Source: Spirogloea muscicola
Taxonomy: Eukaryota > Streptophyta > Zygnematophyceae > Spirogloeales > Spirogloeaceae
Reading direction: 5' to 3'
DNA: 64,000 nt
Assembly: GCA_009602725.1 (NCBI GenBank)
Contig: WELB01000010.1
Coordinates: 593,033 to 657,032 of the forward strand
Position 1 is the first letter of the stretch. The number at the start of each line of letters is the position of its first letter. Made by a program: the position numbers and the translations under genes. The notes beneath the pieces were generated by a model, which saw only the letters and a list, made by a program, of their open reading frames with translations, searched no databases and had not been told where the DNA came from. Positions 2,230-58,100 of the stretch are shown here, one piece after another.

Positions 2230-4494
2230 TCAGCGATTTAGTCTCTTCAAGTGCCCAGAGGCACTCAGTGTCCTTATATCCCTGTCTAGATTGACTATCT
2301 CAGAATTGCTGCAGACAGTGAGTCTCTCCAATGACATGTTGCCTGCACATGACTTGTCTTCCGCTGGGGCAGGCAGTTTGCCTTGGGCAACTCTGAGAGT
2401 ATCCAGGCCTAGCAGTAGCTGCAGTTCACGCCATTCCAAAAAACAGAGCAGACGGAAAAGTTACAAGGTGTGGGCTCAGGAAATATATGTTCAGAATGCA
2501 AGAAACTGGAAACAACTCTTGGCGGGCAGCAGCAGGTACCTGTGTTAACATCTTATAGGATTTATGTACATGCTTTGCTGCAGGTCCTATGCCATGAAGC
2601 TGGGGTAGCTTGGTTGTAGCCAGAGAAGACACCCTTTCCTGCCAGACCAACGCAATGCATCAGAGCCCCTGGCAGCTGGAGAGTTGCAGAGGAGTTGCTT
2701 AAAATGGCACAAGTAGACTGCACCAAAGTGACGATGCTTGCCTGTGGGAATGCTTGATTGCAGCAATCTACAGCGGATAAGAAACCCTGTAGCTGCCCTT
2801 CGACTTCCGCATTTGCCGCGGTGTTATCATAGCTCACAAGCTCTGGTCCCTGCCTGACAACATGCCAGCAACAAAAGCAGTCGGCGAGTCTGCATGAAGT
2901 TGTCATTGGTGAAACCTCCCAATGTCCACCCTGTGTTTCGATTGCATCAATTACAGTGAAGGTTGCCAGCTTTCTCCACCACAAATAGCGAAGTTGCGTC
3001 ATATAAAGAAGAACTGCACCTGTAATTTGAGCTCAACAAGGTCATCCTCCCTCTCCTTGAGAATCTCCTCACACTTCTTGAGCTCTGCAATCTGCTTCTC
3101 CAGATCTGGATGACCAATGCTGGACATTCTGCAACAGATGAATAATAGTGGTCAATTACTAAAACAGCTGACAATGGAGTAATAAGAGAACAAGCCAAAG
3201 GTTCCTGTATGGTACTGTTATCAGCAAATAATTCAGAAGTTCCTACAAATTATAGCAATGGGTTGATGAATACTATGGCCCACATAGACTAAAAGTAGAC
3301 GGGTGGATAAAACAAGGAGAAGTGACCCACAGAGGCAGGCTGTGCTGGCTGACATCTGGGGGAAACAGATCAAGCTTGGTTGTGGTAACACGGCCATATT
3401 CCTGTCCAATAAGATCTATCAGCTCAATGTCTTTCTGTGTCTGGTCGTCAACACTGGCACCAAGCATACATGAGGCATTTGTAAGTAATGGCTCACCACC
3501 GGTCAGTCGTCCTAAGTGAGCTGGAGCATTCAGATTTGACACATGGGAAAATTGCACTTTATGTGATAGCATCAGAGACAGCCAATCGCTTCAAACATAC
3601 CTCTGGGTAAGTGCAACAGATTGGATATGGATTATGGAATAAGGCTACAGCAGACATTCCCTTACCTCCAACCACCCTTGTCAGTATACTTGCTGGCCAT
3701 CACGAGGTTTGCCACTGAGAAGAGGAAGTCCGCTTTCTTATGAAATGATTCTGAGCCCTGCAATTGAAGTGGATAAACATCACTCTCCTGTGTGGTCCTC
3801 AGCAAAAACCTCTCATCGTGTAGGCTCGGCAATCATGCTCAAGGAGCTTACGCAAAATACTCTGGTTGCTTGATTGCGATGGTCCAAAGCAGCCCCATGA
3901 AACTTATCGACCAAGATAGTCATCTTGTTATATGACAAGTGAGAAGTTGATGCATTTGGCCTTCTTTGACCTGCAAGCTCTCTATCTCCTCGAAGTCGGA
4001 GAAGCCAAGGATGCGGGCTGACGTGACCAAGCCTGTGGGCGGCATGCCAAGTGAAATAAGTCAGTCGTATCACGAAGATCGATGTCCAGGAATGGAGCAA
4101 GAGTCTGCTGACAGGTGAGGAAAGCCATGCATTCAAATCCGCTCATCTCTTTACCAGGCGTGTCTACTTCGTCTGCCCACCCGTGCTTGTCAGCAGCTTC
4201 TCCGAGCAAGCTGTTGTTGCAGTATGTTAGACGCTATGCAGTCATGTTAGAGTTGTGACGTTGTCGGGTCGTCAAGAGTGTGAAAAACCATCACTCCAGC
4301 TCTCATCCGCATCGCCCTAGCGATGAACATGGCCATCCAAGCGTGACTGCGTATTGAGTTTGGGACCTGCTGAAGAGCCAGGCCAGCAGCTGGTAATGCG
4401 TCTCGCCCGGGTACAGGAGCGCCTCCAGCGGGGCCAGGGGCCCGCTGTATCCAAGCAGCTGCAGATGGTACTGCAGCCGCAGCACGGTGTCCAT
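2230..4494 (-). CDS. AUG7: Augmin complex subunit 7 (AUG7/HAUS7-like)
   Basis: This is a subunit of the eight-protein augmin complex, which recruits gamma-tubulin to existing microtubules for branched nucleation in the spindle and cortex. Nine exons: 4367-4494, 4113-4210, 3971-4017, 3676-3757, 3331-3520, 3020-3128, 2742-2849, 2540-2638, 2230-2418, giving about 349 aa, close to the plant AUG7 length. Recognisable family stretches are ALLYPGETHYQLLAWLF near the N-terminus, KDIELIDLIGQEY, LFPPDV, KLPQLHGIGPAAKHV and LDRDIRTLSASG at the end. The intron after 2742 starts with GC (CAG|GCAAGC). The donor of exon 4 is uncertain: AG|GTAAGG at 3666 is the stronger signal but breaks the frame, while G|GTGGTT at 3676 keeps it. 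Confidence 0.85.
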
Positions 4495-55116: not shown

Positions 55117-58100
55117 ATGACGCAGTACATCCCGTACTTTGCCGCGCTGACCACGTACTTCAGCTACGGCCTGCTCTTCATCTTCGGCCACCTCCGTGAC
55201 TTCCTGCGGAGCGTCCTGCGACCTAAACGAGCGCCCCAGGTCCGGCATGCGCTATTCGTCGTATCTCACAGTTGCTGTTGACCGGCCTTGAGCTGGCTGG
55301 CTCGGCAGCTGGCACTTGTCCCAGGTCTTCCTCGTTCTAGTGGCTCCTCACTGTCGGCCTGCCAGCCCATCTAGCTGGCCACAGCTGTTCGTATGTCCTT
55401 TTCGGCAGAGTAACTTCACCTTTTGCTGGTCTGCCTGGACTAGGGCTACGCGCCTCTTTGTCGAGACTTTGAAGATTTCTACACCAGGCGACTTTACCAC
55501 CGCATTCAGGTATGCAGCTGACTTTCAGCTGGTCGGGTATCTTCTTGGGTATTTGAAATTGATTTTCCTAGAATACATACGTTGGAAGAAGAGGCAAAGA
55601 GATGGGTGTTGGTAATCATCAAGCTGATACCTACTCCCTGTCAGCTGATTGAATGCTTGGAAACCTGCAGGACTGCTGGAATAGGCCAATTGCAAGCGCC
55701 CCTGACAACTGGATCGATGTTATTGAACGTAGCTCGTTCGACAACAACCAATCCTTGCAGTGAGCTCCAGATTCACACAAAAAGTGCAGTTCCAAATTTG
55801 GCCAGTATTGTCGCCTAAATCTTTACATTGGAACTTACAGTGCCGTCTTGGACCGATGATGCACAAGTATTGGCAGCAAATCTTGCACCTCGGCAGTCTC
55901 ACTGCTCATTGCTAAGATGAACGCTTTTCTTACTTTGTTCCAGTCGGTTGCCAAAGCACCTAAAGTGCCTCAACCTTGGGTCTTACAACTACCTGGGTTT
56001 TGCTGCAACCGATCCATACTGCACTCAAAGAGTGATTGACTCTCTGGTGCAATATGGGGCAAGTACATGCAGCAATCGTATGGATGCAGGTCTGTATGAG
56101 CCAGCTGACCACCTCGAGGTCACCTTGCATTGGCTAGACTGTGAGGCGGAGTACTAGCTGTCATACGTTTATGCGCGCTGGGGTTGTAAATGCACCTTAG
56201 TGCTCCTGAATTTGCTCCAACTTGTTGGAAATGGAGATGGTGTCTGGTCAGAGTTCTTATGGCATGCAAGCTGTGCAAAGTGGATGCACCTGTTACTGGA
56301 CTGGAAATCGGAGTAAGAGACTTGGATGCACGTCATATGTATATGAACTGCAACTATATCGGAACTTAGTCTTTTCCTCCTGTACAGGCAACACAATGAT
56401 TCATGTGGAGCTTGAGCAACTTGTGGCACGCTTTGTTGGGAAGCAGGCTGCGATGGTTTACGGCATGGGCTTTGCCACGAATTCCATGACCTTCCCTGTC
56501 CTCGTTGGCAAGGTCCACACAGCACTGTGCTAGGAGACGAGCTGCCACGTAGGAGACTACCATCAGGCCGTTGTGGTACTGATCAATCAAAAGATTTGTT
56601 GTAGCATCGCTGGCAAGCATTGTAGTAGGATAAGCGTGGTAGAATCTTACAAGGTGATGGCTCCACCTTTACTGTTGGGGCCTCTCAGGGTGGTCTCATT
56701 GTCAGTGATTCATTGAATCACGCTTCCATAGTAGCCGGCGCTCGGGGCTCGGGAGCAAAGGTGGTTGTCTTCAAGCACAATGGTAGGTTTGGGGACGGGC
56801 TTTCCAGGCTGAAGATGCTTGATTTTCGAACTCCTGTCTTTATGGTGGTCACAATGGGTCGTCTGTATAAGCAGCGAGTGATCCTCATGACATTCTTTTG
56901 TTGTTGCAGTGCCAGAGCATCTGGAGCTTGTACTAAGGGAGGCTATTGCTGACGGCCAACCACGCACTCACCGCCCATGGAAGAAGATCATTATCATTGT
57001 CGAGGGCATCTATAGCATGGAAGGGGAGGTTTGTCGCTTGCCCGAGATTGTGACGATTAAGGAGAAGTACAAGGTGAGTGTTGGATGTCAAGGCACCTTC
57101 TATGCTGTGCAGTCGAGAGCGATGAGCCTAGCACAGCAAGGATTGAGGCTGTCATGCTGTGTACAGCCAAGAGACTGAAGCCTTCCATTAATATTATGCA
57201 ACAGTGCTATCTCTACCTAGACGAGGCACACAGCATAGGAGCTATTGGCAGGACAGGAAGAGGAGCATGTGAGCTCCTTGGTGTGGACACTTCTCGAGTA
57301 GACATCATGATGGGCACATTCACAAAGTCCTTTGGTTCTTGTGGCGGTTACATTGCAGGCTCAAAGGCAAGTTCTCGCTTACGTTTTGGTGCAACCTTGT
57401 CAGCTTGAGTCAAGGGGTGCCTTTACATCCAACATCGCATATTTAGTAATAGGTGAAGACGACGTGTAGAGGCACATCAAGCTGATGCTGTTCATGTCAA
57501 CACTCACCTCAATGGGACTATAATCTATAAGTCAGCACTCCTTAGCTTTCTCCATGCTTGCAGGAACTAATTGCCTATCTGAATCAGAAAAGCCCAGCAC
57601 ACATCCACGGAACATCAATGTCACCACCAGCAGCCATGCAGGTGATCAGCGCCTTCAAAGTGCTGTTAGGGGAGGATGGCTCTGACCGAGGTGAGTAATG
57701 ATTTGCAATTTCTCTCAGGGCATTTCTGCTTTTGCATATTGCAGGCCAGAGTTATCATGCTATGTTGACTTGACATCTTAGATTAGCCTTCTCTCTATTG
57801 AAATGCAGCACTCTCTGAGTTGAGTCAGCCGATCCCCCTCTTTCAGGTCTCAGAAAGTTAGCACAGCTGAGAGAAAATAGCAATTGGTTCCGGTCTCAAC
57901 TGCGTCAAATTGGTTGCGAAGTTCTTGGAGATGAAGATTCACCAGTCATGCCCCTCATGCTCTACAACCCCGCAAAGATTGCCGCCTTTTCTCGCGAATG
58001 TCTTAAACGAAATGTGAGTGCCTTCTTGTAGAAGCATCATGTTTATGGTGAGCAGTTGGCTGTCTCATCAAATCTGAAAGTGACTACCTGTGCACATAGC

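Follow-up and report, generated by a model that had tools for sequence, protein, structure and literature searches.

On average, 1.2% of land-plant introns are of the GC-AG kind, that is, they begin with GC instead of GT and end with AG (PMC6310983). Their share has been given as 39.6% in Aureococcus, 22.2% in Micromonas pusilla, 7.7% in Chlorella and 2.7% in Micromonas RCC299 (PMC3033335). A set supported by RNA gave 25.6% GC donors in Micromonas CCMP1545, with 9.7% among its regular introns, and 1.5% in RCC299 (PMC4815162). For Emiliania huxleyi the share is about 55% (PMC7779022), or 50% as cited in PMC4815162. The 5' end of U1 was reported to be normal in Aureococcus and in two Micromonas, the only algae whose U1 that paper considered, Chlorella not being among them, and the cause of the excess was called an enigma (PMC3033335). 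The present analysis concerns GC-AG introns in the streptophyte alga Spirogloea muscicola, and it started from a 64-kb stretch of DNA, here called the window (C10:593033-657032, contig WELB01000010.1), with a G+C content of about 54%, in an assembly of 153.1 Mb and 471 contigs. A first-pass annotation of the window had described seven GC-AG introns in seven genes and an eighth candidate, all with one strong donor.

As judged from the genomic sequence and protein homology, the GC-AG excess in this alga is real and genome-wide, and it lies nearer 5% than 7-8% of the homology-anchored introns. The rate was taken from outside the window because the window genes had mostly been chosen for their GC donors. 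Exon ends were placed with a spliced protein-to-DNA aligner in which all 16 donor dinucleotides had equal cost and an AG acceptor was required. Each junction was also re-aligned with one dinucleotide class at a time permitted near the donor, the classes other than GT and GC serving as decoys, and a score of at least 12 over eight residues was demanded on both sides of the junction. The sample consists of 21 genes picked as recognisable and conserved. Of these, 14 lie in 10-kb stretches drawn at random (L012-L031) and BRR2 in another random stretch drawn later (L034); the other six are chaperonin CCT genes that were located by a PF00118 search and fetched by coordinates. Both flanks were supported at 125 of the 157 junctions, and these comprised 109 GT, 7 GC and 9 other donors. 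Six of the GC donors are firm, which gives a rate of 4.8% (interval 1.8-10.2%; P = 0.004 vs 1.2%). The seventh, VPS13 6979 (GAC|GCAGAG; the bar marks the exon end), passed at both flanks and ties with a decoy, and it was not counted as firm. The nine junctions favouring a decoy are spread over eight dinucleotides, with a maximum of two for any one. When a margin of at least 3 over every other class is required, the 125 junctions divide into 98 GT, 6 GC, four decoys with one each, and 17 undecided. In the CCT and BRR2 part of the sample, where the choice was blind, 4 of 70 junctions are GC (5.7%, interval 1.6-14.0%, P = 0.010), and the CCT genes hold these four among 57.

Some of the reference proteins are approximate and may contain wrong letters; this lowers scores and is not expected to favour any dinucleotide. 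A duplicate HPAT alignment was excluded, and assembly copies were not counted separately. The 32 junctions that failed the flank cut-off were dropped, among them SOL1 843 (AAG|GCAGGC), where GC leads GT by 27 points. They also include junctions labelled GC where the alignment was poor, in M13 (two), HGH1 (two), SPS, CRY-DASH, HOP, HPAT and CCT6. Among the fetched 10-kb stretches, L015 and L031 are all N, and L017, L018 and L035 are more than half N. A self-trained two-strand gene-finding hidden Markov model (HMM) was set aside since it did not separate GC from the decoys: when one non-GT class was allowed at a time, the gains were 24.6 + 30.7 for GC, the largest, 24.7 + 12.5 for CA and 8.1 + 25.2 for TG. 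With GC allowed, this model chose the PES, TFIIE-beta, AUG7 and SAM donors of the window and passed over those of DJ-1, LCB2, APH-1 and mS37. This model was at no point run on the stretches with CCT and BRR2, which is what makes that part of the sample blind.

The excess claimed for the window thus holds up outside it, at a rate that is better put at about 5% than at 7-8%. The denominator of the latter figure, roughly 98 introns in the window, was not reproduced; taken at face value, 7/98 is 7.1% (interval 2.9-14.2%). A genome-wide rate near 1%, which the first-pass annotation had itself named as evidence against its claim, was not what the outside-window sample gave.

The donors of the two classes differ clearly in their surroundings. 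GT donors are loose (n = 132), with AG at -2/-1 in 81, A at +4 in 57, G at +5 in 88 and T at +6 in 40, and the full AG|GTRAGT is found in 4; GTCCAC, GTGCGG and GTACCT are examples of donors degenerate at +3 to +6. At the other end of the GT introns the signal is sharp, with C at -3 of the acceptor in 94% and G at -4 in 57% (n = 83). The GC donors are tight (n = 12, six from the window, with mS37, PES and APH-1 included, and six from outside): all 12 have AG, 11 have A at +4, 11 have G at +5, and eight carry the full AG|GCRAGT, three of six outside the window and five of six inside. The mean match at the six positions other than +2 is 5.33 of 6 for the GC donors outside the window vs 3.73 for all GT donors (Mann-Whitney P = 0.0003). 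Over the 115 GT and firm GC junctions of that sample, the GC share for one to six matches is 0/1, 0/4, 0/40, 1/50, 2/15 and 3/5, a rise with a permutation P below 1 in 20,000. The proposal that GC at +2 is compensated by strong pairing at the other positions is supported by both the difference in means and the graded rise.

It is proposed, with a probability of roughly three in four, that these are ordinary U2-type introns with C for U at +2, tolerated at strong donors, and that no altered U1 is needed. U1 pairing would accept one A.C mismatch at +2 if the six neighbours pair, and C and U would then be nearly interchangeable at +2 of strongly matching donors. At the weakly matching GT donors, of which there are many, changes from U to C at +2 would be filtered out. 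In a moderately GC-rich genome C may accumulate at the strong donors. A GC share that is graded with the match is the expected pattern, because the +2 mismatch would for the most part be accepted only where the remainder of the U1 helix pairs strongly. A more far-reaching version, offered only tentatively, is that +2 could be a nearly free site in donors with full pairing, with C at least as common as U, and that the genome-wide GC share would follow from the number of strong donors and from mutation, not from a changed spliceosome. The full-match donors from outside the window comprise 3 GC and 2 GT; over all junctions passing the cut-off the numbers are 5 and 4. The assignment to the U2-type class refers to the GC donors at exon ends fixed by homology in LCB2, DJ-1, TFIIE-beta, FtsH, VPS13, CCT2, CCT3 (twice) and CCT6. 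U12-type introns have the consensus ATATCC at the donor and CCTTAAC at the branch site (PMC3033335). In a comparison of the donor only, ATATCC was not matched by the GC donors, which read GCAAGT, GCAAGC, GCGAGT, GCGAGG, GCACGT or GCAAAG.

In the window, spliced alignment anchored 33 junctions in eight genes. An exon end followed by GC is present, with the letters as described, at all eight places named in the first-pass annotation (Table 1). Its statement that homology fixes seven of them is borne out by alignment for LCB2, DJ-1, TFIIE-beta and APH-1. PES agrees, with a decoy that scores better, and mS37 fits on a reading of the frames, which give MELQ|AKRNKQVPPINYHLQRL across the junction; the joined mS37 protein has a CX9C match, but under the curated cut-off. 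AUG7 is weak at the junction, and the identity of the gene comes from a match to PF06694 (Plant_NMP1) of 110 bits. The LCB2 protein aligns to Arabidopsis LCB2a without gaps over 374 residues. In the SAM gene, the candidate donor is the choice of the HMM once GC is allowed, with a poor downstream exon. Its letters depart from the single consensus (C/A)AG|GC(A/G)AG(T/C) that had been given for all eight, and a donor with the same letters is well supported in CCT3. The idea of one uniform donor is further contradicted outside the window, where FtsH, CCT3 and CCT6 have other variants.

Table 1. GC donors in the window (positions are those of the window) and firm GC donors outside it, with the score margins of GC over GT and over the best decoy.
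Gene	Feature	Position	Strand	Donor	GC over GT	GC over best decoy	Evidence
AUG7 (augmin subunit 7)	intron	2639..2741	-	CAG|GCAAGC	7	2	weakly anchored; flanks unsupported
TFIIE-beta	intron	7400..7573	-	AAG|GCAAGC	38	5	spliced protein alignment
mS37	intron	11791..12163	-	CAG|GCAAGT			frame reading only
APH-1	intron	14013..14288	+	CAG|GCGAGT	20	4	spliced protein alignment; downstream flank below cut-off
SAM gene	candidate donor	16299..16304	-	CAG|GCACGT			letters and HMM choice only
PES (phytyl ester synthase-like)	intron	27493..27655	+	CAG|GCAAGT	20	TG nominally 2 better than GC	spliced protein alignment
DJ-1	intron	47746..47864	+	AAG|GCAAGT	13	3	spliced protein alignment
LCB2	intron	57367..57563	+	AAG|GCAAGT	36	9	spliced protein alignment
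FtsH	firm GC donor outside window			CAG|GCAAAG			spliced alignment
VPS13	firm GC donor outside window			GAG|GCAAGT			spliced alignment
CCT2	firm GC donor outside window			AAG|GCAAGT			spliced alignment
CCT3, first	firm GC donor outside window			AAG|GCGAGT			spliced alignment
CCT3, second	firm GC donor outside window			CAG|GCACGT			spliced alignment
CCT6	firm GC donor outside window			AAG|GCGAGG			spliced alignment

Several of these donors recur elsewhere in the assembly. The search patterns left +2 open and allowed at most three mismatches, so that more diverged copies would be missed; GC was found at all 13 further copies or places (two each for LCB2, TFIIE-beta, mS37 and CCT6, three for APH-1, one each for PES and CCT2). 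When the window copy is included, GC is present in 3/3 copies of LCB2, TFIIE-beta and mS37, in 2/2 of PES and at 4/4 places for APH-1. The search for DJ-1 gave no further copy within three mismatches. The GC-bearing copies on other contigs differ elsewhere in the intron, as seen in the alignment of LCB2, and the recurrence of GC across copies speaks against base-calling errors.

The LCB2 stretch is present on C10, C52 and C141 with 94-95% identity, and most of the chaperonin genes are also found on two or three contigs. Two or three uncollapsed copies thus seem to be present in the 153-Mb assembly, whether polyploid, hybrid or haplotypic. C52 keeps the gene order of C10 in reverse. On C141 the genes found at 7-14 kb in the window are inverted and lie more than 100 kb from those found at 27-57 kb, and this difference from C10 and C52 is either a rearrangement or a misassembly between the copies. 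The APH-1 exon end with its GC donor was matched at two places on C52 (C52:562227 and C52:570308), and APH-1 may be duplicated there.

A number of observations weigh against the proposed reading. The firm GC introns outside the window number only six, so that the rate is loose, and the donors of FtsH and VPS13 were already in the HMM output before alignment, so that their choice was not blind. All junctions rest on protein homology. None of the 13 BRR2 junctions is GC, nor is any of 12 in TyrRS, UTP18 and RETICULATA-related, three of the eight anchored window genes, for which the first-pass annotation had listed no GC donor. In FtsH the donor lacks G at +5. AG|GC|RAGT words occur at only 1.29x expectation (0.74x for the GT version), and the donor-word counts in the sampled DNA are weak in general, with 17 for [AC]AG|GC|RAGT, 8 for the GT version and up to 12 for other classes. 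Conservation between copies has low power, with less than one change expected in 13 at about 5% divergence; because the divergence is so low, the unchanged +2 says little on selection. Finally, the acceptors of GC-AG introns score below those of GT introns (P = 0.006, with a weight matrix derived from the GT set, which favours its own training set). Nothing at the acceptor therefore compensates for the GC donor. Human GC-AG acceptors likewise score lower (PMC7242645).

The first-pass annotation had pointed to a changed U1/donor recognition system, and the parts compared here, the U1 5' end and U1-C, do not bear this out. A search with RF00003 gave three U1 matches, two of them above the cut-off, and both of these full genes start with ATACTTACCTG, the canonical 5' end. 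The third match (L011) is partial and below the cut-off, and its first three letters, none of them opposite +2, are different; it looks like a pseudogene. The zinc finger of U1-C is split by an intron at C284, and the 29 joined residues make up an ordinary U1 zinc finger (PF06220, 66.7 bits). LUC7-family matches were found on four contigs. A second protein with a U1-type zinc finger is encoded at C265:56286-56406 (L047); presumably it resembles ZMAT5/U11-U12-20K, a hint that this alga has the minor spliceosome.

A lineage-specific change in donor recognition that relaxes +2 generally, through U1 modification, U1-70K, LUC7, U6 or Prp8, would also account for the excess and is regarded as unlikely. 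It would suit the degeneracy of the GT donors at +3 to +6, and U1 modification or U1 proteins have been suspected for other algae (PMC3033335). However, both full U1 5' ends and the U1-C finger are ordinary, and a general relaxation predicts GC in weak donors, whereas outside the window the weakest donors, 45 that match at no more than three of the six positions other than +2, include no GC. Somewhat less likely still is that high genomic G+C alone drives C into +2, a factor that can be part of the cause only. Across species G+C correlates loosely with the GC-AG share (PMC3033335), but the window is at about 54% G+C, and Micromonas RCC299 at 64.1% has 2.7% (PMC3033335) or 1.5% (PMC4815162) GC donors; the excess in S. 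muscicola is moreover confined mostly to strong contexts.

It is improbable that the GC-AG introns derive from introner elements carrying a GC donor. Such an origin has its model in Micromonas pusilla CCMP1545, where GC is found in 43.5% of the introner introns vs 9.7% of the regular ones (PMC4815162). In S. muscicola, however, a BLAST search of 114 introns against about 0.2% of the genome, and thus of low power, gave no non-self match for the counted GC introns. Matches with full identity over at least 50 bases from the first base of the intron had been removed as self, and the two non-self matches among the 114 are both short; one is from a HOP intron with GT, the other from a junction of M13 with low support. 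Assembly errors that turned T into C, or faulty gene models, are the least probable explanation and already largely refuted: AUG7, mS37 and SAM are named junctions of the window without firm anchoring and homology alone places the junctions, but GC recurs on other contigs whose intron sequence is otherwise not identical, and no decoy dinucleotide wins as often as GC does.

At a moderate G+C content, this alga combines GC use graded by donor pairing with an ordinary U1 5' end. Gene finders that accept GT only would break about one in twenty introns here. The result also raises the question whether the GC share follows donor strength alone in those algae where the excess has been called an enigma (PMC3033335).

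Algae with many GC donors have been described before, and S. muscicola is a further, moderate case. Like Micromonas pusilla CCMP1545 it is a green alga with many GC donors, which in CCMP1545 are frequent even in the regular introns (9.7%); the share there is 25.6% and largely due to introner elements (PMC4815162), of which none were seen here in a search of low power. Chlorella sp., likewise a green alga, has a similar share (7.7%), but its G+C content is the second highest among 61 species (PMC3033335), compared with about 54% in the window. Emiliania huxleyi and Aureococcus are also algae with an excess of GC donors (PMC7779022; PMC4815162; PMC3033335); they belong to other lineages, and their shares are about an order of magnitude higher. 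The GC-AG introns of land plants are of the U2 type, as those described here would be, but several times rarer (PMC6310983).

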